Below, piece after piece: positions 9,814-64,000 of a stretch of DNA of 64,000 bases. This DNA comes from Trichuris trichiura (lineage: Eukaryota; Nematoda; Enoplea; Trichinellida; Trichuridae): assembly GCA_037903355.1 (NCBI GenBank), contig JBAJFE010000018.1:1302001-1366000 (forward strand). Direction: 5' to 3'. Below the pieces are notes generated by a model. It worked only from the letters and a program-made list of their open reading frames with translations, was not told the origin of the DNA and searched no databases. The position numbers were made by a program, and so were the translations under genes. Position 1 is the first letter of the stretch. The number at the start of each line of letters is the position of its first letter.

Positions 9814-9915
9814 AAGTCGGCGATTGAAAATGTGGTTTCTTCGTACGGGAAGGTATGTTTTTTTATTACGGGAATTACTCCGTAATAAAGTGGTTGCATT
9901 ATGAAGTCGGCGATT
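9814..9915. mobile_element. PLE terminal-repeat relic with 12-bp target duplication
   Basis: Direct repeats AAGTCGGCGATT at 9814-9825 and 9904-9915 bracket a 78-bp insertion. The insertion contains the start of the 10251 element (TGTGGTTTCTTCGTACGGGA, one base off) and a fragment related to CGGGAATACTTCCGTAATAA from its terminal repeat. It appears to be a nearly empty insertion made only of PLE end sequence. Confidence 0.7.
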
Positions 9916-10250: not shown

Positions 10251-10334
10251 AATGTGGTTTCTTGGTACGGGAGCGTATGTTTTCATAATGTAAAAGTTTT
10301 ATTATGGAAGTATTCCCGTTTAATGTGCTAATTA

Positions 10335-10380
10335 ACTCCGGAGCTTTCGGGTCGACCGAGACCCGTCTTCAGCGGTTGTG
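10335..10380 (-). ncRNA. Hammerhead-ribozyme-like motif, PLE-1 outer end
   Basis: On the reverse strand CTGAAGA (10366-10372) is followed by a strong GGGTC/GACCC stem II and GAAA (10345-10348), then the self-complementary GCTCCGGAGT. This order (CUGANGA, stem II, GAAA, short stem III) is the hammerhead core. Penelope elements are known to carry such ribozymes in their terminal repeats. Stem I pairing is not obvious and cleavage is untested. Confidence 0.65.
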
Positions 10381-10656
10381 AATTACGGATGTAACTTGTG
10401 CGCATGGCTTGAGTCTTCTGTCGTTTTCATGGTTTAAAGCGAGTGTTTTAAAGCTCTTTGTTGGTGGTCTTTTGTTTGTATGATATGTAATTTGTCCGTT
10501 TTTTCGCATTTTTTCATTTGCGGTGATTATTTCTTCTTTCGCTTGCTCCATGTGTTCTTGTATCATGTCCAATTATGGAGCAGCAGTCGTAACGCGTCAC
10601 TATATTTGTCCAAATTTCACTTACATCTGCTCCTTGGTCGCGGTTATATGTGAGGG

Positions 10657-12669
10657 CTATATGTGTCTTATGTAAAGGGCTTCTTTCATTCTTCTTAATC
10701 GTAGGTTCTTTTCATAACATAAGACTTTTGGGTTGAGCGTCTGGTTACATTTTGTGGCATGTTCTGCCACAGCAGAGGCTTGTTTGGCTTTTTCCATGGT
10801 GATTATCGGGTTTAAAATTGGTCTTCCTCTTTGTGTAGTTCCATTGCCACTGCTATTGAGCATGGCCTTCGCATTGTTGTAACTTGCAAGCTTTTTTAAA
10901 TGTTCATTAAATCTATGTTCTAAAGTGTTCCCCGTTTCGCCAATATAAATTCCTGAGCAAGAGCATTCCACTGCGTATACTAATCCTGTCTTCTTGTTTG
11001 TTGGGATTTTTGTTTTGTCCGAGCGAAGAATTGATCTGAGGTTAGGGGAGCTCTTGAAGAAGACTCTGAAACCTAACGTTCTTCCTAGCCGGGTAATTTT
11101 TTCTCCTAAGCTAGCCACATAGGGAATAACTAAGCAAGGCTGGTGCGAAGCGTTTTCTGCACTAGGTTCACGTTTGCGAAGCTTGTAGTTGAATACTTGG
11201 CTAATAAAGGACCTGGGATATCCGTTCTTGTAGAAAATGTTTCGAATGTGGTTGAACTCTGGTTGAAGATATTCAGGACTGCATAATTTGATTGCTCGGT
11301 CAATCATTCCGGAGAGGATACCTCGCATTACTGATCTGGGGTGATGTGATGAAAAGTTGAGGTACTGATCCGTGTGCGTGGGTTTTCTATATACTCTGGT
11401 TTTTAGCCCATCGTTTGTGCGAATAATTAAAGCGTCTAGAAAGGGTAGGGTGTTGTTGTCTTCTTTTTCCATTGTGAAAACAATTTGGTTCGGGCGGATG
11501 TTGTTGAGGAATTGTAAAAATTGCTCTTCCTTTCCAGCTTTAATAATTACGAATATGTCGTCTACGTACCTTTTGAAAAGGCGTGGAGCTATGTGTCTGT
11601 CTACCGTTGCGAACATCTGTCTTTCAAAGCTTTCCATAAATATTTCTGCTAATACTGGAGATAAGGGGCTGCCCATAGGTACTCCGCTAGATTGTTTGTA
11701 GTACTTGTTATCAAAAGTGAAATGATTGCCTTCTTCCATGCAAAAGGAAACCAATTTGACAATGTGAAAGGGATTTAGTTTAGTTCTGGTGGGTAGACTT
11801 GTGTCTGCATTGAGGAGATTGTATAGGATCTCAAGTGTATCTGATATGGGGATGCTCGGGAATAGTTCTTTTACGTCATAACTAACCAGAATCTCATCTG
11901 GTTCTAGGTAGTGACTCCGGATTTCGTTGACAAAAGTTTTGCTATTTTTGATAAAGGACGGCTCTTTGCCAGTAAGCGGTTTGATGATCGTTCCTAAGTA
12001 TCGACTGAGTTCACTTGTGATACTATTAATGGTGGAGACTATTGGTCTCATTGGAATCCCTGGTTTGTGTACTTTTGGGAGACCATAGAGCTCAGGGGGT
12101 CTGAAGTTCGATGCAAACTTAAGATGTGTTATCATTTTGCTGATTTCAGGTTCTTTGGTCTCAGCGGCATATGTGATGAGGAGAGATCGAAGATTTTTCC
12201 GGGAAGCTTCTGTAGGGTCAGTGGGTAAAGGGGCATAATTGTTGGTGCTTAAGATAGCTGTCATTTTTTCCATGTAGGTGTTTCTGTCTAGTAGAACTAT
12301 TTTATTCCCTTTATCGGCTTTAGTGATAATTCTGTTCGGTTGATTTCGAAGCTGATGTAGGCAGTTCATCTCATGTCGACTTAAGTTAGGAGTGGCGTTG
12401 AAGCGGTGATTTATGATTAATGTAGATAAAGTGCTTTTAATCTGTCTGGCTCTTTGTGGGTCTGTCGAGGATAAGCTGTCTTCAATTGAGGTAACGATAT
12501 CGAGAATGGGTGGTCGTTTAGGGGTGGGAACGAAGTTCAGTCCCTTTATTAGTATGGCCTTCTCACTTTTACTTATAGAGGAGGAGCTGAGGTTTACTAT
12601 TGTTGTATTTAGTTCCAACTCAGTGATCTTTTGTAAGCTATTGCTGTAGACATTTAGAGAAGTCACCAT
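10657..12669 (-). CDS. Penelope-type reverse transcriptase with GIY-YIG endonuclease (N-terminally truncated)
   Basis: Uninterrupted 670-codon frame. In order: a KADKGNKIVLLDR finger motif (~118-130), the palm motif with YDVKELFPSI (~265), GVPMGSPLSPVLAEIFM (~333), catalytic RYVDDIF (~366-372), an LPFLDALI segment, then a C-terminal GIY-YIG nuclease starting CSCSGIYIGETGNTLEHRFNEHL near 568-590. The nuclease nicks the target and the RT copies RNA from the nick, as known for Penelope elements. The frame begins right at the inverted-copy junction, so about 170 N-terminal residues seen in the sister element are missing and the ATG at 12669 is probably incidental. Catalytic residues are intact; activity in trans cannot be ruled out. 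Confidence 0.9.
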   Translation of the reverse strand: MVTSLNVYSNSLQKITELELNTTIVNLSSSSISKSEKAILIKGLNFVPTPKRPPILDIVTSIEDSLSSTDPQRARQIKSTLSTLIINHRFNATPNLSRHEMNCLHQLRNQPNRIITKADKGNKIVLLDRNTYMEKMTAILSTNNYAPLPTDPTEASRKNLRSLLITYAAETKEPEISKMITHLKFASNFRPPELYGLPKVHKPGIPMRPIVSTINSITSELSRYLGTIIKPLTGKEPSFIKNSKTFVNEIRSHYLEPDEILVSYDVKELFPSIPISDTLEILYNLLNADTSLPTRTKLNPFHIVKLVSFCMEEGNHFTFDNKYYKQSSGVPMGSPLSPVLAEIFMESFERQMFATVDRHIAPRLFKRYVDDIFVIIKAGKEEQFLQFLNNIRPNQIVFTMEKEDNNTLPFLDALIIRTNDGLKTRVYRKPTHTDQYLNFSSHHPRSVMRGILSGMIDRAIKLCSPEYLQPEFNHIRNIFYKNGYPRSFISQVFNYKLRKREPSAENASHQPCLVIPYVASLGEKITRLGRTLGFRVFFKSSPNLRSILRSDKTKIPTNKKTGLVYAVECSCSGIYIGETGNTLEHRFNEHLKKLASYNNAKAMLNSSGNGTTQRGRPILNPIITMEKAKQASAVAEHATKCNQTLNPKVLCYEKNLRLRRMKEALYIRHI

Positions 12670-13435
12670 GCAGTCCTGAATACCTTCAACCAGAGTTCAA
12701 CCACATTCGAAACATTTTCTACAAGAACGGATATCCCAGGTCCTTTATTAGCCAAGTGCTCAACTACAAGCTTTGCAAACGTGAATCTAGTGCAGAAAAC
12801 GCTTCGCACCAGCCTTGCTTAGTTATTCCCTATGTGGCTGGCTTAGGAGAAAAAATTACCCGGCTAGGAAGAACGTTAGGTTTCAGAGTCTTCTTCAAGA
12901 GCTCCCCTAACCTCAGATCAATTCTTCGCTCAGACAAAACAAAAATCCCAACAAACAAGAAGACAGGATTAGGTATACGCAGTCGAATGCTCTTGCTCAG
13001 GAATTTATATTGGCGAAACGGGGAACACTTTAGAACATCGATTTAATGAACACTTTAAAAAAGCTTGCAAGTTACAACAATGCGAAGGCCCTGCTCAATA
13101 GCAGTGGCAATGGAACTACACAAAGAGGAAGACCAATTTTAAACCCGATAATCACCATGGAAAAAGCCAAACAAGCCTCTGCTGTGGCAGAACATGCCAC
13201 ACAATGTAACCAGACGCTCAACCCAAAAGTCTTATGTTATGAAAAGAACCTACGATTAAGAAGAATCAAAGAAGCCCTTTACATAAGACACAACCTCACA
13301 TATAACCGCGACCAAGGAGCAGATGTAAGTGAAATTTGGACAAATATAGTGACGCGCTACGACTGCTGCTCCATAATTGGACATGATACAAGAACACATG
13401 GAGCAAGTGAAAGAAGAAATAATCACCGCACATGA
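12670..13435 (+). pseudogene. Inverted partial PLE RT/GIY-YIG copy
   Basis: Forward-oriented duplicate of the C-terminal third of the neighbouring PLE protein: NHIRNIFYKNGYPRSFIS through the GIY-YIG domain to ALYIRHN. A frameshift inside the GIY-YIG region near 12972 breaks it into two frames (12756-13046 and 13046-13435). It starts at the CAGTCCTGAATA sequence also found in the main copy, so the head-to-head joint lies at about 12670 with a few bases of microhomology. Not expected to be functional. Confidence 0.88.
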
Positions 13436-13569
13436 AAAAATGCGAAAAAACGGACAAATTACATACCATACAAACAGAAGACCACCAACAGAGAACTTTA
13501 AAACACCCGCTTTAAACCATGAAAACGACAGAAGACTCAAGTCACGCGCACAAGTTACATCCGTAATTC

Positions 13570-13616
13570 ACAACCGCTGAAGACGGGTCTCGGTCGACCC
13601 GAAAGCTCCGGAGTTA
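13570..13616 (+). ncRNA. Hammerhead-ribozyme-like motif, PLE-1 inverted copy
   Basis: CTGAAGA at 13577-13583, stem II GGGTC/GACCC, GAAA at 13601-13604 and GCTCCGGAGT at 13605-13614. It is the mirror copy of the motif at 10335-10380, so the element carries the same motif pointing inward from both ends. The core letters are conserved; stem I is weak. Confidence 0.65.
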
Positions 13617-13672
13617 ATTAGCACACTAAACGGGAATACTTCCGTAATAAAACTTTTACAATATAGTCTGCT

Positions 13673-16403: not shown

Positions 16404-16539
16404 TGGTTGTAAAGTCTTCTACGGCTTTTCCCGTTTTTTCGTTGTGCTGTTATCTGTAATTAAACTAAAACAACTGCTCTACCAACGGATGGATGAGCTG
16501 TTATTAAAAAAATGTACAGATATCAACGCACTCAACTAT

Positions 16540-16590
16540 TTAATGTTCAAAGCTTTCGGAACGCTCTAGTTCCGTCGTCAGTGAGGTGGT
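16540..16590 (-). ncRNA. Hammerhead-like motif, PLE-2 left repeat
   Basis: Reverse strand: CTGACGA (16575-16581), stem II GGAAC/GTTCC, GAAA (16554-16557), then GCTTTGAAC. CTCA before the core could pair with TGAG after the presumed cleavage region, giving a stem I, but the expected NUH cleavage triplet is not canonical. Core conserved; activity doubtful. Confidence 0.55.
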
Positions 16591-16656
16591 GGAGGAGGTG
16601 TTATTCTCTGAATGGTATTATATAAGCTCACGTAACAATAGGAATGGGGGTCGAGG

Positions 16657-19271
16657 TCAGCGCGGCAGAGAGCAACACTTGGTTATACTAATCAGTGGGT
16701 CCCAAGCCGAGCTAACCTCTTGTCCTTTGTCACGGTTGATCGTATGGTTATGGCGGATGTAAAGAGCCTCCTTAACCCGGCGGCGATGGAAGTGGCTCTC
16801 GCGACAAATAATCCTGGGTTGTAGGTAGAGCGAGCATTTAGAGGAATGCTCGACGACCGCCGACGCTTTGATCATCTCTTCTATGATCTTCTCCGGTTTG
16901 AGCTTCTGTGGTCGGCCTCGTCGCGGATTATTTGTCCTTTATCCGTCGGGTTGGTCATTCTTCGCATCGCCTCTTTGTATCGGCCGACGTTGGTCATGTG
17001 CTGGCCGTACCTGTGAAGTAAAGTGTTGCCCGTTTCTCCTATGTAGGAGGCGTTGCAACCGCATCGTAACTCGTAGACGACGGCCGGTCTCCTGTCAAAG
17101 GGAACTATGATCTTATCACTCCTCACCATTGAACGCAAACTGTTAGATGTCTTAAATCGAACCTTGAAGTCCATGGAACGGCTCAGTCGTAGGATTCGTT
17201 CCCTGATGCCGTTGTAATAGGGGATAAACAAAATGGGGCGACTATTCGTGATTGCAGTGTTATCATTAGTAGGGTTAATATTATCAATAGTATTAGTGTC
17301 GTTGGGTGAGGATGTAGCGTTCAGGGGCTGTCTGCATTCGGCGATGATATGTCTAACCAAAGAATGAGGGTACCCGTTGTCTGTAAATGTATGAAGGATG
17401 TGTTTTAATTCTCCCGGAAGAAATGCGGGGTGACAGACAGCCAGGGCCCTGTCAACCATCCCTTTTACAATACCCCGTTTGACTGACAGAGGGTGGTGTG
17501 AAGTGAAATGCAGATATCTGTCAGAATGGGTCGGTTTTCTATAAACGGAGGTCCTTATTTCGTTGCCCTGTTTTATCACCAATACGTCTAGGACGGGAAG
17601 TTTATTATCTACTTCTGTTTTCATAGTTAAACGTATGCTTTTGGGGAAGATGCTGTTTAAGTGGTTTAGAAACGCCCCCTCCTTGCCCTTGGTGGTGATA
17701 GCGAAAATGTCATCTACGTAGCGTTTGAAGAAGATGGGCGCTACGTCCGGGTTTACGCTAGCGAAGACCTTTTCCTCGAAGTGTTCCATGAAGATCTCCG
17801 CTAGAACCGGCGATAGTGGACTGCCCATGGGAGCACCATCTGTTTGTGAGAAGAACCTGTCCTGGAACCTGAAGTAGTTCCCTTGTTTCATGCAGAAGGA
17901 AATCGGTTTCGTTATGTGAAAAAGGTTCAGTTTCATTTTTAAAAGTCCCGTGGTGTCCCTTTTGAAAAGGTTTTCTAATAGGTTAAGCGTATAGTCTATG
18001 GGGATGCTAGTGAACAAATCTTTGACGTCATAACTAACCATGACGTTGTTCGGTGTTAATTGGAGTGGTTTTAACGCCATGCAGAAGTCTTTACAGTTTA
18101 AGACATGAGAATCAAGTTTACCCGTTAGCGGTTTTAGGATGTCCTTCAGATAGGTGCACAGCCTGGATGTTACGCTGTTGACGCTTGATACGACTGGTCT
18201 TACGGGGATTCCCGGCTAATGAATTTTGGGGAGTCCGTAAAGTTCAGGACATTTCGCGTTGTTTAAGAAGTAGATGTAGTTACTGATGTGCGAAAGCTGG
18301 TGGTCCTGTTTTTCACTTGCGAACGCATCCAGTAAAGCCCTCAGTTCCACCCGCGCCTGAGGAGTTGGGTCTTCCGGGATAGGGCGGTATATGGCATTAT
18401 TTAACAGACTGTTGATTTTCTGTTTGTAATCACTACGGTTAAGGAGAACCACTACGTTACCTTTGTCCGCCTTAGTAATTATTATGTCTTCGCGCGACTT
18501 TAGTTGCTTTATAACCCGCTGCTCCTCGTGGGATACGTTAGGTGTTGATGATGGGCGACTCTGCAATAGGATGTTTGATATTGATGCTCTGACCTGTGTA
18601 GCCTTTACAGATTTAGTGTGAGAGAGCCCGCTCTCCACCGAGGAGATGATGTCCATAACGGGAATATTCTTAGGGGTGGGAACGAAGTTTAAACCCTTGG
18701 CGAGAACCCCTTTCTCGATCTCATTCAAGTTGGCAGAACTGAGATTGACCACCACTTTGTCAATGCTTTGTATGCTAGGGTTCTTGGTGCGTTTGTTTGA
18801 TCTTGTAAATTCCCAAGACCGCGAACCGTATAAAGCGTTGAGTTTTTTATTTAAGATCTGGATCTGTTGTAGTTTTGTTAATGCGCAGCTGTTTTTAATA
18901 TGTGCATGCAACTGAGACAAGAAATTGAAATTAATTGAACGTGAAAGAAATTGTGTGTAATGGTTGCATGCATTTTTAAGTAGGGCAGAAGATTTTCTGT
19001 GATCACGAATAGTACCTTTTAGGAGGGAGACCCCGGTCGATTGTAACAGTTTTGACGTTCTTGTATTTCGGGCATGGTTCCATTTTATTTGGAAACATTT
19101 TGGTAGGAGACCTGCATCGCGGCATTTTAGTAGGTATGTCCACTTACCCATCGTTAATGTCGATTTCATTGATGATCTTTCAAGTTGTTTGGCTGCGTCA
19201 AGGCAAAGTGCGCCGTGGGCACTGAGGATGTTCTTGAAAACTGGGTGTTTTGTAACGGGCTGTATTTTCAT
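16657..19271 (-). pseudogene. PLE-2 reverse transcriptase/GIY-YIG, stop and frameshift
   Basis: Starts MKIQPVTKHPVF at 19271 and keeps the N-terminal region missing in PLE-1. A TAG at 18216-18218 replaces the Lys codon of the conserved PKxHKPGIP segment, and the frame continues without shift to the palm (YDVKDLFTSIPI), GAPMGSPLSPVLAEIFMEHF, RYVDDIFAI and the GIY-YIG domain (CNASYIGETGNTLLHRYGQH). Near 16920 a one-base shift breaks the RGRP segment; the C-terminal piece resumes at 16657-16875 with KEALYIRHNH. Two lesions make this copy non-autonomous. Confidence 0.9.
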
Positions 19272-19409
19272 GGTTGTAAGGTCTTCTACGGCTTTTCCCG
19301 TTTTTCGTTGTGCTGTTATCTGTAATTAAACTAAAACAACTGCTCTACCAACGGATGGATTAGCCGTTATTAAGAAAATGTACAGGTATCAACGCACTCA
19401 ACTTTTTTA

Positions 19410-19455
19410 ATGTTCAAAGCTTTCGGAACGCTCTAGTTCCGTCGTCAGTGAGGTG
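19410..19455 (-). ncRNA. Hammerhead-like motif, PLE-2 right repeat
   Basis: Same arrangement as the left repeat: CTGACGA at 19442-19448 and GAAA at 19421-19424 on the reverse strand with an identical stem II. Present in both direct repeats, as expected of a terminal-repeat ribozyme. Confidence 0.55.
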
Positions 19456-19678
19456 GTGGAGGAGGTGTTATTCTCCGATCGGTGTTATATAGGCTCACGT
19501 TCCGTAAAAGTTGAGTGCGTTGATATCTGTACATTTTCTTAATAACGGCTCATCCATCCGTTGGTAGAGCAGTTGTTTTAGTTTAATTACAGATAACAGC
19601 ACAACGAAAAACGGGAAAAGCCGTAGAAGACCTTACAACCATGAAAATACAGCCCGTTACAAAACACCCAGTTTTCAA

Positions 19679-43977: not shown

Positions 43978-46311
43978 TCCGCTCTGTACAAATGACTTTA
44001 ACACAAAGCCAACTCGGCGAGGCGGCAACCCTTTAATTGATTGCCAACCAGCAGGTGCCCATCGAGCACTGATTGTTTAACATAAATGCCATTGATGGAA
44101 AACAGATTAGATTATTTGCACGAAGTGTAATTAATGTGTGAACCGATTTTCTTGCTGAACAAATTCGTAATTAAATGTCTGAGCACTTGAGTATGCGACT
44201 TTTTAAAGAACGACGCTATGTTCAGTCTAATACGTACGTTGACGTTTCGCCACTAACGTTGAAAAAGTTCATTGGCCGTCTTTCACTGCCGACGTAGAGA
44301 ACAGGTCAGAACGAATCGCTTTGGTTAAAACAACTTTGCTTCACCTCGTACAGAGGCGGTAACTATTCATTGATGACCAGAAAGCTTTCGTACAGCTTTT
44401 AAGCAACGACCAAAGAAGGAAAGGACATTAATACTGTGGCGGTTGACGACGTGATAGCGAAAATGCCTTTTATTTTCACTTTAGCAATTCGACAGAATCT
44501 GCTTGCAAATTTTTTGAAGTATACTTGGCAGTTTCTTTAGGTTGAGATGAATTTGTAATCTTTATTCTTAGCTAATGGCGCTGAAAAAACGCTTGCAGCG
44601 AGCGAATATAATCTATGCTATTTTAAATGGTACATATTGACAATGTAGCGACGTCGCAGTGAGGAAATGCTGAACCGTCCGCTTTTCGCGCGTACTGTAT
44701 GGCAATCAAGTGCGACAGGTTTTCCCGCCACCTAGCTTGTCTCAATCGAGCACAATAATCTGTTTCTTGAAAACAGAATGGACCGAAAATGTTAATACTG
44801 TATCGGACCTGCGCCTGCTCATTTTTAGTGCTGCCTCCAAAACGTCTCTTATTGTAATTAGGTGATTTGTAGTCGTTGCCGTTATGTAACAAACATTCAC
44901 TTTCCGTCATCATGATTCACTTACAGCTAGAGTCAAATAATTTGCTCGCATTCTTGTTCTTTTCCATTAAACTTGTTATTTTAGCGAGAATGAAAAGGAT
45001 TACGTGAACTGTATGGTACATGCTGTAGTCATTAGATTATACGCACTTCCATCTGCAAAGTCTAATTCGAAAAATACGTTCGCCCGAATCTGCTCCTTTC
45101 ACTTTCTTTTCTCAGGCCGAAACGTGGCGCTATTCGTATTTGGACGCATGAAGCGACAATTCCGATTTCACTGTATATTAGTTACTTCACCTTGACGCCT
45201 CGTCAACTTGAGCCCCGCCTTAAGGTGAGACATGTTAGCGCCTGAATTTCAGACTGGTCCATCTTGACGCAATGTAAGGATGTGACATCTGTCAGCTTGA
45301 ACAAAGGCGATTCCACGTTTATTCGGTGCCAGAGAAGGTCCCTGCGTCAACGCGCGTCAAACCGTGGCGACGTAAAACCGCCTTTGGCAAAAACATCTTG
45401 ATGCAGGGTCAAAACGTAAAGTCGAAACCTTGCAAGCGTCGAACCGATAGACGTCGAACCACCTTGCCCTAACTGAATAGATTGCAGTTGAACCACCATA
45501 AGTTGTACATTCCACAGACTGGTCAACTTACAGTGAACAAACTAGCATTGCGTCTATATACCACGTTAAGGCTAAAGCGGTCAACTTCCCACTTACGGAG
45601 GTGGTCAACGTATAGAGGTTGTCTTTGCGCTTATTAGCGTGCTGACAAATCAACTGGTCAAAATTTGGTCAACTTCAGGGATTCTACTTTAATAGACGAA
45701 TGATAGAATTATTTTTAAATATAAAATTGGTTCAGCATACGCTGAAATCGCGCCGACGTATGAAGTTACAGTGTCAATGATAATCAAGACCTTTCCGCAT
45801 ATCTGGCCATTATGCAACATTTGTTTAGTGGTTTAATTTGTGCTGTTGCCTTTTATCCTGCCAGGATCAACTTAAAGCTTAGGATTTTGCTGAGCCATAA
45901 GTGCTTTGTTACCTTCTCGCTATACAGTTGCAGCCAGATTCGCAGCCTAAGCTTAAGCCTATGTTCGAGGCTTTTAGAACAAAAACTCACGAAAGCAAAA
46001 TGAAGTAGTGGACAGTGGTGGCAAGGCAGACAAATTCGGTATTTTTGAGTTAAAGTTCGGCGTCGTCTGTTATCTCAAATCTATTCGGTAAAACCGAATT
46101 GAAAAGTGATAAAAACTCTCTACAACTTTCTGCAGATGAGTCTTTAACACTGTCGTTGTGCCCAGAAAATTTATTTCATCAGTGTCAGGGGACTTTTTTT
46201 CTGGAGCTTTCTCATCGTTCTCTAAGACGAATTCGCTGAACTAGGACACTCACGCGCGCATAACGCAGCGTTTAGAAAGAAACACTCACGCATCGTCACT
46301 TGAGGAATATA
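43978..46311. other. Intergenic region
   Basis: Contains the decayed MITE 45485-45689 and, from about 45190 to 45480, sequence rich in GTCAACTTGA/CTTGACGC words that may be an older relative. A 96-codon reverse frame at 44623-44913 has no recognisable domain and no splice context. Confidence 0.45.
45485..45689. mobile_element. Decayed second copy of the CAGTAGAACC MITE
   Basis: Left end CAGTTGAACCACCATAAGTTG; right end, read on the reverse strand, AGTAGAATCCCTGAAGTTGA. Interior words such as GGAGGTGGTCAAC match the copy at 43674-43846. More diverged than that copy. Confidence 0.65.
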
Positions 46312-46830
46312 CAGGTAGTTCTCGTATAACGCGTGTTCATATAACACGTTTTCGCTTATACGCGATTTTGAAATCGTAGCACTTTCTCACATAACGCGAT
46401 TTCGCCGGCTGAAAAGCGTGGGCGTATGGCAAAGTCTCCCCATGTTTTCATCCACCGAGAGCAAACAAAGACCGCGCTGTTAACTCACGCGCGTTCTTCG
46501 GTCACTAACAAGCGAAATGTGGCAAAAACGTCTGGGATTCTTCTCAAAAGTAGTAGCCAACCCAGCTGTGCACCCTGCGATATACATTCTCAAACAGGCT
46601 ACTGATCGATATTCATGTTCCGTGGAATAATTCGCGCCGGCAGGAACATATGTACAGACGACGTTTCTATTTTCAATTCTCCAGAAGCGCAGGCGTCGTA
46701 GAGGTTTTCCAGTGAGTCGTAGTACGTTAGCACAGAATTCGGAAAGCATTCACACCGTCTGATTGCGAGCTCAATTCGTAAGTATTTTGTCTGATTCCGC
46801 TATCTGAGGATAGTCTTTAAGTATCTGAAA

Positions 46831-47536
46831 ATGCCTAAGCTTCCTGATTCGAAGTCAGCTGGTAGTGGTCGAAAACGAAAGGCGCTGACTGTTGGAGAGA
46901 AGCTTGAGATACTGAAACGGTATGAACGGAATGAGACGACACGGAATATCGTCAAAGCTACCGGCATAAAGGAATCAACCTTGCGGACCATTAGGAGCAA
47001 TGCAGAAAAAATTAAACAGACTTGCGTAAGCGGTACCAGTTCAAGTATTGCGATGTCAATAAGAACAAGCCCTAAGATACTGGAAGAAATGGAAAAACTA
47101 CTCAGCATTTGGATCGAAACTCAAACGATGAAAAGAATAGGAACAACGTTTTTCACCATCAGACAAAAAGCATTTACCATTTACGAAGACCTTAAGAAAC
47201 AGTCTACAAATGCTACTGAAATTCCTCCATTTACTGCTAGTAGTGGTTGTTTCTGCTGTTTCAAGAATCGATACAGTTTTGACATTGTCAGATACCTCGG
47301 AAACTATTGAACAGCGTTTACAGTGGCTCGAAGACAATGACTGTAATGCAGAACGCAGCAGGAAAACCACAAGACGTAGCCGAGCTTGCTTGGAGCCATA
47401 TACGCAGCTGCTGTACGAAAGAAGAACACGTGCGAAACAAAAGAAGCTCGAATTCTACTTTACTGCAATGAAGAAACATTGTGACGATGAGGAAGCGCTA
47501 CCTTCTACATCTAATAGGACCTCAGTTTGCCCGTAA
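46831..47536 (+). pseudogene. CENP-B/Tigger-like transposase remnant, DDE core missing
   Basis: Frame 46831-47310: residues ~14-65 form the CENP-B N-terminal HTH (KRKALTVGEKLEILKRYERN...TRNIVKATGIKESTLRTI), and ~85-150 the second CENP-B DNA-binding HTH ending ASSGCFCCFKNRYSF. It then shifts frame into a short C-terminal piece (to 47536) with QRLQWLEDNDCN and KKLEFYFTAMKKHCDDEE. The whole DDE catalytic domain (~200 residues) is gone, so this copy cannot encode a transposase. Confidence 0.85.
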
Positions 47537-47954
47537 CAAAGGATAGTGAGATTAAAAAAGTGAGCCCAACGGAACTCCATTCTTTCCTGGGTATGAGGTC
47601 GTTTATTTTAGTACTGAGAGGGACTCTTCCCACAAGCTAAAGACGCAAGCACGCCGCTGCTGAAAGCCAGTTTGAGCTCTGTCAGCTGTAAAGAGTTCTG
47701 TCATATAAGCTACGCCGTTAATGTATGATCGCCGTAAAAGATAATGTTATTCAGACCCCGTGTAAGAGGATCCATACGTCAGCGTGCCTAACGGTAGAAT
47801 AAGTATCTCAGGTACATCATAATTCCTGTTTCAACCCAGCTTATTTAAGATATCTCTCCGTTGTTGAAAACGTGGTTTCTTGGTACGGGACCATATGTTT
47901 TCATAATGAAAAACTTTATTACGGATAGGTTCCCGTTTTTATGTATGTAAAAAA

Positions 47955-48000
47955 CTCCGGAGCTTTCGGGTCCATGGAGACCCGTAATCAGCGGGTCAAC
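47955..48000 (-). ncRNA. Hammerhead-like motif with damaged core
   Basis: Reverse strand CTGATTA (47985-47991), where the conserved CUGANGA has lost its G; GAAA (47964-47967) and stem II remain. Expected to be inactive. Confidence 0.6.
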
Positions 48001-48002
48001 TT

Positions 48003-48050
48003 AAAACCGCTGATGACGGGTCTCGATTGACCCGAAAGCTCCTGAGTTTT
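48003..48050 (+). ncRNA. Hammerhead-ribozyme-like motif, mini-element copy 1
   Basis: CTGATGA (48010-48016), stem II GGGTC/GACCC with a small loop, GAAA (48034-48037), then GCTCCTGAGT, where the usual GCTCCGGAGT palindrome carries one change. Core bases fully conserved; stem I is weak. Confidence 0.68.
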
Positions 48051-48187
48051 TTACATACATAAAAACGGGAACCTATCCGTAATAAAGTTTTTCATTATGA
48101 AAACATATGGTCCCGTACCAAGAAACCACGTTTTCAAAACTATACAGGGTGCATACGGAACACCCCTTCTGTCAGCTGCAACAACTT

Positions 48188-48235
48188 AAGACCGCTGATG
48201 ACGGGTCTCGATTGACCCGAAAGCTCCGGAGTTTT
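48188..48235 (+). ncRNA. Hammerhead-ribozyme-like motif, mini-element copy 2
   Basis: CTGATGA (48195-48201), GGGTC/GACCC stem II, GAAA (48219-48222) and an intact GCTCCGGAGT. In direct orientation with copy 1, 185 bp apart, so two ribozymes could release a unit-length RNA. Confidence 0.68.
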
Positions 48236-48444
48236 TTACATTCAAAAAAGGGGAACCTATCCGTAATAAAGTTTTTCATTATCTCTCCGTTGTTGTTTAC
48301 AAGTAAACAATCCTTCTGACGCTTTGAACCAAATCGTGATTTTCCTATACTTTACATGTCTCCTATAACGCGATTTCATATAAGGCGAGATTTTTCAGGA
48401 TTTTTAAGTGACCAAACGCTCGCGTCATACGAGAACTGCCTGTA

Positions 48445-48846
48445 TATAATGAATGTGTAGCGAAAAAAGCCATCAAGGATACTCTTGTTGCTGACGTCAT
48501 AATTCCTGCCTTCTCAAAACAGACTGTACTACTGTGAGAAGGGCTAACTGATTTTATATATATTAATATAACCTTTTTTTGTTTCATAGATGCCTTTCAT
48601 TTATTATATACTTCACCGAGAAAAGAGATCGACTCACCCGTGTGCTAGGAAACAATGGGAAGGAATGTGCCTGATAGCTGGTAGTAATACTGATAGAACA
48701 TAGCCAAAAGTGGCTATGAAGATAAAGAGGGCCCAAATCTGCAACGGGGAAGAGAAGAGAGGCAAAACGTTTGGAGAACAAATGAACCAAAAGTGTGGAT
48801 TGTGGCCAATAGAAATAGCATTGGCGATTGAAAAGGAGCATTGCAT
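48445..48846 (-). CDS. Possible 5' exons of a small membrane protein
   Basis: From ATG at 48846, a frame with FSIANAISIGHNPHFWFI leads to a GT-AG intron (ending CCCGTTGCAG at about 48739). A hydrophobic exon IWALFIFIATFGYVLSVLLP then ends at a GTGAGT donor near 48650. A further exon (about 48535 to 48450, STVCFEKAGIMTSATRVSL...) follows TTCTCACAG. The Tigger insertion begins a few bases beyond it and may have cut the gene. The family was not recognised; could be a decayed gene. Confidence 0.35.
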
Positions 48847-63690: not shown

Positions 63691-64000
63691 AATAGTAAAC
63701 TATTTCGTCGAAGATTTTGCCTCTTTGAAAGGTCAATTCGATTATGTCGACAAGAAGCTAAGCTTCAAATTTTTTTTCACCTTAACATCTTCCCATCAGC
63801 GCGCATGCTTTGTCGCTTCGTGTTTTCTACGCGGAAATGTGGCGTTTCCTTCACTGGAGTTTTTTTCTTTTATTACAGATTTTTCGGCTGCCAACTATGG
63901 GCCGTCATCAGCGCTACGAATAAACAAATAAAGTTCGTAAAAGAAAAGCATCACCTTTCCCTCGCTATTGCCATTTCTTTATTTACGCACTTTGCGACAG
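63691..64000. other. 3' flank of protease 5
   Basis: Non-coding to the window end. An AATAAAC/AATAAAG pair at about 63920-63932 could serve as a polyadenylation signal. Confidence 0.4.

Follow-up and report, generated by a model that had tools for sequence, protein, structure and literature searches.

Penelope-like elements (PLEs) leave inserts of a characteristic form. In the accessible part of PMC3846280, a typical insert is described as an inverted pseudo-LTR (pLTR) joined to a direct pLTR-ORF-pLTR array and bounded by a target-site duplication (TSD); a 31-bp tail is optional and lies on one of the inverted pLTRs, and self-priming on antisense RNA is the preferred account of the palindromes of these elements. 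According to the accessible text of PMC11167929, the PLE protein of a lizard (the anole) cuts and extends both strands of its target, and its reverse transcriptase (RT) starts at two neighboring internal sites that delimit the tail, while the later steps of PLE integration are said there still to await validation. Minimal hammerhead motifs may cleave as dimers, and their role is termed a mystery in the part of PMC7761336 that was available. In the literature searched, which had key PLE papers outside its coverage, no report was found that describes hammerhead-only PLE palindromes as abundant or tailed and tail-less ends as strictly paired.

Results

Structure of the 413-bp insert and its empty site

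The window, that is, the whole stretch of 64,000 nucleotides of Trichuris trichiura DNA that was analysed, contains at 47867-48279 an insert of 413 bp, flanked on both sides by a perfect 16-bp TSD (TATCTCTCCGTTGTTG, 47851-47866 and 48280-48295; identity 16/16), as the first-pass annotation had proposed. The TSD of this unit scored 16, whereas a control set of 288 mispaired flank pairs, drawn from 36 similar loci, contained none that reached 9. The insert is composed of three PLE pLTR copies with hammerhead boxes in each, A1 being inverted and A2 and A3 direct, which agrees with the earlier description of three PLE-type terminal repeats, two of them head-to-head and one direct. The features of the region are as follows.

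46307..48447, plus strand: host DNA transposon, recognised by a frame with a CENP-B_N domain and 27-nt inverted termini
47851..47866, no strand: left TSD, 16 bp, recognised by its TSD score and by the single copy at the empty site of paralogues
47867..47994, minus strand: A1, inverted pLTR copy with a tailed outer end; hammerhead at 47957-47994 (minus) with a broken core (CTGATTA)
47997..48137, plus strand: A2, direct pLTR copy with the tail region; hammerhead at 48007-48044 with the core boxes kept and stem I mismatched
48138..48181, plus strand: linker, 44 nt; 88.6-97.7% identical to the post-pLTR sequence of five PLE loci
48182..48279, plus strand: A3, direct pLTR copy with a tail-less outer end; complete hammerhead at 48192-48229
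after 48041, plus strand: expected A2 cleavage, by analogy
after 48226, plus strand: expected A3 cleavage, by analogy
48280..48295, no strand: right TSD, 16 bp, recognised in the same way as the left one

A BLAST search with A2 as the query placed A1 (minus) at 47864-47994, A2 (plus) at 48000-48137, and A3 (plus) at 48185-48282, limits in which a few of the outermost bases run into the TSD. A1 and A2 form an inverted repeat of 131 nt (97% identity) with 12 nt between the arms, and the starts of A2 and A3 are 185 nt apart, the unit thus comprising 1.5 direct repeats of 185 nt and an inverted copy. With the tail region in A2, a tailed A1, and a tail-less A3, the tail stands at one outer end of the unit, as in PLE inserts. 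Seven base changes distinguish A1, A2, and A3, and six of them are private to a single copy; therefore, the three may have been identical at the time of insertion. Four frames of at least 30 aa (ATG, GTG, or TTG start) touch the unit, and the longest (70 aa) extends beyond it. Because no RT/EN frame of its own is present, the unit is only a PLE-derived insert and not an autonomous PLE. Matches to PLE-type RT, the RT type for which the window was searched, were confined to 10.7-19 kb. A read-through transcript of 47867-48137 would fold as a long hairpin (MFE of the unit RNA, approximately −253 kcal/mol), and matches of the unit to plant microRNA precursors in Rfam (MIR2646, MIR1319, and others), all below the gathering score, were set aside as reflecting this hairpin. 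Such hairpins from hundreds of like loci could feed small-RNA silencing of PLEs, which is speculative.

The 27-nt inverted repeats at 46307-46333 and 48421-48447 (93% identical) look like the termini of the host transposon. Of the 40 matches listed for the 387-bp left flank of the insert within the host, 39 were further copies. This flank was present in at least 40 copies at 94-100% identity, so the CENP-B_N-type transposon looks young and abundant. All six paralogues of the host transposon that were read across the site lacked the insert and had one copy of the TSD. These results indicate that the unit arrived as one insertion or that an insertion was later shortened internally. The earlier claims that an RT-less insert sits inside a DNA transposon and that it arrived separately from any neighboring PLE RT are borne out.

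The linker and the missing ORF

The pLTR sequence of the unit is common to elements that encode RT and GIY-YIG, which places the unit among PLEs. One of these, the family 1 PLE, is in the window itself: its 679-aa frame (10657-12696, minus) has RVT_1 and GIY-YIG domains, its terminal repeat is 83% identical to A2, and the best-named relatives of its protein are those of Trichuris muris and T. suis (at best, 52% over 96%). At five loci (L040, L041, L046, L065, and L071), an A repeat is followed by the 44-nt linker of the unit and, further on, by PLE coding sequence. The identity of this coding sequence to that of family 1 was 68-84% in L040, L041, and L046; in L065 and L071, it was 58% over 65-77 aa. 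A CAA microhomology connects the linker of the unit directly with the stretch that immediately precedes the A3 hammerhead, and the ORF is missing. The unit is therefore a PLE-derived defective insert with the textbook PLE layout from which the ORF is gone. A search of the 72.7-Mb assembly that allowed up to 3 mismatches gave a single occurrence of the joint between the linker and A3.

The hammerhead motif

The motif reads NNN-CTGANGA-C-GGNNC-(6 nt)-GNNCC-GAAA-GCT-H-NNN. CTGATGA and GAAA are kept in A2 and A3, and A1 reads CTGATTA, a change that we take to be at core position G8. The first-pass annotation had counted two of the three cores as intact; this holds for the boxes of A2 and A3, but A2 has a C-U mismatch within its 3-bp stem I, and A3 is the sole complete hammerhead of the unit, with stems I and II present in its minimum-energy fold. 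A 35-base pattern of the unit's kind gave 1115 and 1079 genomic matches when up to 3 mismatches were allowed; the reversed control gave 0. The stem I triplets of three families are different yet complementary (CCG/CGG, TCA/TGA, and GCG/CGC). The GCG side of the third was predicted from CGC before the search, which yielded 52 exact places; of 101 places in total, 100 were listed, and 98 of these begin with GCG. Stem I pairing is broken in a few copies, for example, TCT against TGA. Stem II varies on both sides (GGGTC/GACCC, GGAAC/GTTCC, and GGCTC/GAGCC). The CUGANGA and GAAA boxes of a minimal PLE-type hammerhead are accordingly accompanied by covarying stems I and II. A stem III hairpin is absent, and the self-complementary AGCU is in its place; judging from this sequence, the PLE hammerhead probably needs two RNAs to cleave (AGCU-AGCU).

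Searches of Rfam gave nothing at the gathering score in the whole window, no hammerhead among the matches to E 10 in 47800-48350, and no match of RF00008, the sole hammerhead family searched genome-wide. The assignment as a ribozyme therefore rests on the boxes and the covariation. At 63911 of the window (minus), a CTGATGACGG box followed by CCGAAAAAT resembles the PLE hammerhead but fails the pattern. Within the GCG/CGC family, head-to-head pairs among the exact places were 146-750 bp apart (11 pairs, by eye), and one pair at 85 bp was seen when a mismatch was allowed; very short palindromes seem rarer in this family than in the other two.

A class of short hammerhead palindromes with unequal ends

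Exact head-to-head hammerhead pairs no more than 92 nt apart were found at 232 loci in the genome, 82 of them with a spacing of 0-30 nt, 110 with 31-61 nt, and 40 with 62-92 nt, and reversed controls gave 0 in each class. Neighbors less than 3 kb apart were head-to-head in 17 of 17 cases among 100 listed places of 2194 and in 17 of 18 among 100 listed places of 446. The spacing was 55-132 in 9/17 (first listing) and 6/17 (second listing) of the pairs and ranged up to 2430 and 1679, respectively, in the rest. Therefore, the short forms grade into long ones.

The ends were compared in 44 stretches, consisting of the window and 43 loci (L037-L079) from approximately 70 places matched. This sample came mostly from a search with the unit as the query, which favors palindromes and no end type. 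Adjacent head-to-head arms were present in 36 of the stretches, the exceptions being L040, L041, L046, L057, L065, L071, L078, and L079, and many of the palindromes were approximately 215-280 bp long. The outer ends were unequal in 36/36 palindromes: one lay within query positions 83-109 and the other within 127-138. A tail of approximately 37 nt was thus present at one end and missing from the other without exception. A TSD score of at least 9 was obtained for 32/36 palindromes compared with 0/288 mispaired controls. L054, L062, L076, and L077 had no strong TSD, and the strong scores of L037 and L069 came from AT-simple TSDs. The TSDs, and hence the stagger, ranged from 9 to 18 bp. The AT content of the target sites was 71% compared with 57% for the window; in a search for a target motif along the borders of the TSDs, AT-richness alone stood out. 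The sequences just upstream of the CCG hammerhead were diverse (for example, CTTAAGA, TAATTTCA, and TCCTTAGA), which suggests many PLE subfamilies with one common hammerhead.

The same rule of one short and one long end was seen in ORF-bearing or longer inserts, namely 10251-13659 of the window (TSD of 13), L046 (TSD of 10), and L078 (TSD of 14), and also in L081, L083, and the family 2 insert described below. Of the eight sampled loci with non-adjacent arms, L046 and L078 were bounded.

Two PLE inserts with RT domains lie in the window. The family 1 insert at 10251-13659 has an inverted 3' part, a 13-bp TSD (AATATAGTCTGCT), and one tailed and one tail-less end. A lone 38-nt piece resembling the tail end of family 1 and of the A repeat lies at 9824-9861, approximately 420 bp beyond this insert. 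The family 2 PLE encodes RVT_1 in a protein approximately 46% identical to that of family 1. Its insert (16404-19678) has direct repeats 2867 bp apart, an inverted fragment, and a TCA/TGA stem I, and one of its ends extends 40 nt beyond the other. The TSD of the family 2 insert matched at 12/13 positions, a score equaled in 3 of 300 random placements.

Diversity of the palindrome centers

Centers were typed in 87 palindromes, 50 of the 82 with a spacing of 0-30 nt, 37 of the 110 with 31-61 nt, and 0 of the 40 with 62-92 nt, and 86 of the 87 were distinct. In the L037-L079 palindromes, the center was read in 20, and 19 were distinct. The one repeated center among the 87, that of L081/L082, and a second repeat in the 62-92 nt class, that of L083/L084, each belong to a duplication that includes the flanks (97% and 99% identity, respectively) and the TSDs. 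The exception among the 20 is L048/L056, in which one and the same center occurs at different sites with different TSDs; however, 4 nt missing from both arms of L048 are present in both arms of L056. This arm-matched indel suggests that the same joint arose twice and that one locus is not a simple copy of the other.

The median divergence between the two arms of an element was 0.047, and that between elements was 0.166 for short-short, 0.147 for long-long, and 0.165 for short-long comparisons. The partner arm was the nearest of all in 10/34 cases each way; the nearest non-partner arm was of the same end type in 35 cases and of the other type in 26, with 6 ties; and both arms had a common nearest other element in 23/33. 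Because these nearest-neighbor results are noisy, the arm trees do not decide, and subfamily structure can explain why both arms share a nearest element. The preferred reading is that each palindrome arose on its own, as a very short by-product, instead of through the copying of a unit.

Discussion

We propose, with a probability of roughly 0.7, that the unit is one very short PLE insertion made from two cDNAs at two start sites and not a copy of a like unit; it was probably dead on arrival. The PLE protein, with its RT and GIY-YIG endonuclease, would make staggered cuts, 9-18 bp apart, in the two strands of an AT-rich target, and each cut strand would prime one cDNA inside PLE RNA, at two different but adjacent start sites. 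One start site would yield the end with approximately 37 nt extra (the tail) and the other the tail-less end. Each cDNA would then be extended toward the 5' end of the RNA, near which the arms appear to end, often halting within tens of nucleotides upstream of the hammerhead, and the two would be joined head to head, the order that is observed. In the unit, the cDNA of the tail-less end would run from the start of the A3 repeat and pass via the CAA microhomology to the 44 nt that come after the first pLTR; this step, a template jump or the use of an RNA without the ORF, would give A2-linker-A3. Priming on both strands is suggested by the structure of the ends and by the in vitro results for another PLE. 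A linear template RNA whose end had been trimmed by the hammerhead of A2 was also considered and was rejected, as the copy continues upstream of the expected A2 cleavage site for approximately 45 nt.

Several other readings overlap with this one; they are not mutually exclusive, and their odds need not sum to one. A normal PLE insert may have lost its ORF via CAA after insertion, the mechanism of two primed ends being otherwise the same. The order of the unit is that of a textbook PLE minus its ORF, and microhomology-mediated deletions are known in PLE copies (PMC3846280, accessible part), but no intermediate was seen, and the joint is single-copy, hence the timing cannot be read from it. We favor a template jump and regard a later deletion as a serious, if somewhat unlikely, explanation. 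The first-pass annotation had named, as a finding that would refute its reading, that all copies are internal deletions of full PLEs with shared flanks. Half of this applies: the unit corresponds to a complete PLE lacking the ORF, yet it has flanks of its own and represents an independent insertion. Fold-back self-priming of a single strand, the antisense-RNA model that the authors of PMC3846280 prefer, in its accessible part, for rotifer PLEs, agrees with the loops of no more than 2 nt in 24 of the 87 centers. It predicts equal outer ends, however, and the tail made them unequal in 36/36 palindromes, so two priming events fit better; fillers and unequal inner ends are also common at the centers. 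As the source of the palindromes, fold-back is thus unlikely, though it may act at the inner joint.

A family of non-autonomous palindromes (MITE-like or foldback) that multiply as whole units, with the 413-bp form as a variant, would account for the 232 loci and their frequent length of approximately 215-280 bp, for the center shared by L048 and L056 at differing TSDs, and for the excess of nearest non-partner arms of the same type (35 against 26). Against this stand the 86 distinct centers, the duplicated flanks that explain the L081/L082 and L083/L084 repeats, the 4-nt indel conflict between L048 and L056, and spacings that merge gradually into ORF-bearing inserts; moreover, the long arms are not clearly grouped (0.147 against 0.165 and 0.166). 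We consider such a family very unlikely. The first-pass annotation had viewed the unit as a retrozyme-like parasite of a PLE, perhaps moving as a self-cleaved or circular RNA. An ORF-less 185-nt repeat would be transcribed, cut by the hammerhead, circularized, and reinserted by a PLE protein, A2-linker-A3 representing 1.5 turns. The spacing of 185 nt is within the 150-450 bp range of animal retrozymes, and PLEs are named as candidate helpers (both in the accessible part of PMC7229834); the possible identity of A1, A2, and A3 at insertion would also suit a circle. Instead of the many unit copies expected of a retrozyme, however, the joint was found once at up to 3 mismatches, with just 1.5 repeats, and the linker is an ordinary PLE piece. 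Nor is the hammerhead a canonical type I: stem I is 3 bp, the stem III hairpin is absent, Rfam recognizes no hammerhead, A1 is dead, and stem I of A2 is mismatched. The copy also runs past the expected A2 cleavage site, and a circle leaves the inverted, tailed A1 unexplained. The retrozyme reading is not supported and is highly improbable.

Returning to the insertion from two primed cDNAs, we tentatively extend it to PLE integration in general, as a two-RNA, two-RT reaction with polarity, an idea that we hold to be rather doubtful at present. For one strand, priming would take place on an RNA at the tail site, and for the other strand on a separate RNA at the tail-less site; the hammerhead, acting only as a dimer (AGCU against AGCU), would pair or release the RNAs near the end at which the cDNAs meet, and the hundreds of hammerhead palindromes here would be frozen products of the shortest outcome. 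The pairing of tailed and tail-less ends itself suggests that a single event uses two start sites, and it argues against an origin by one fold-back. It bears on how PLEs form the second DNA end, on the reason for the inverted pLTRs of their copies, and on the function of the hammerhead. With no fewer than 232 minimal inserts in head-to-head order, this genome offers a natural record of single events, and it cautions that PLE-related inserts consisting only of ribozymes need not be retrozymes.

As far as the accessible parts of the respective sources go, close relatives in form are EN-containing Penelope inserts such as Pen2a_Av of Adineta vaga (PMC3846280), which likewise have an inverted pLTR, two direct pLTRs, a short TSD, and a palindromic inverted junction. 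In Pen2a_Av, the tail of approximately 31 bp is optional on one inverted pLTR, whereas here a tail is on exactly one end in 36/36 palindromes; furthermore, unlike Pen2a_Av, the unit has no ORF, and ORF-less forms are abundant. Poseidon PAc of the anole (PMC11167929) resembles the present elements in its two adjacent start sites bounding the tail and its AT-rich targets in vitro and in a hammerhead of stems I and II only. That hammerhead is active only with the protein, and palindromes and full integration are not among the results demonstrated in the part of the report seen. Metazoan retrozymes (PMC7229834) are similarly small, ORF-less, and hammerhead-bearing, with TSDs of more than 4 bp, and their repeats measure 150-450 bp, but they occur in many copies as direct tandems and have canonical hammerheads and circular RNAs, whereas the unit is single-copy and mostly inverted with a minimal hammerhead. 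Finally, the twin priming of LINE-1 also involves two priming events that give inverted, truncated inserts with TSDs; unlike in LINE-1, both PLE cDNAs would start at fixed internal sites of the RNA, and both outer ends are 3' ends of the element.
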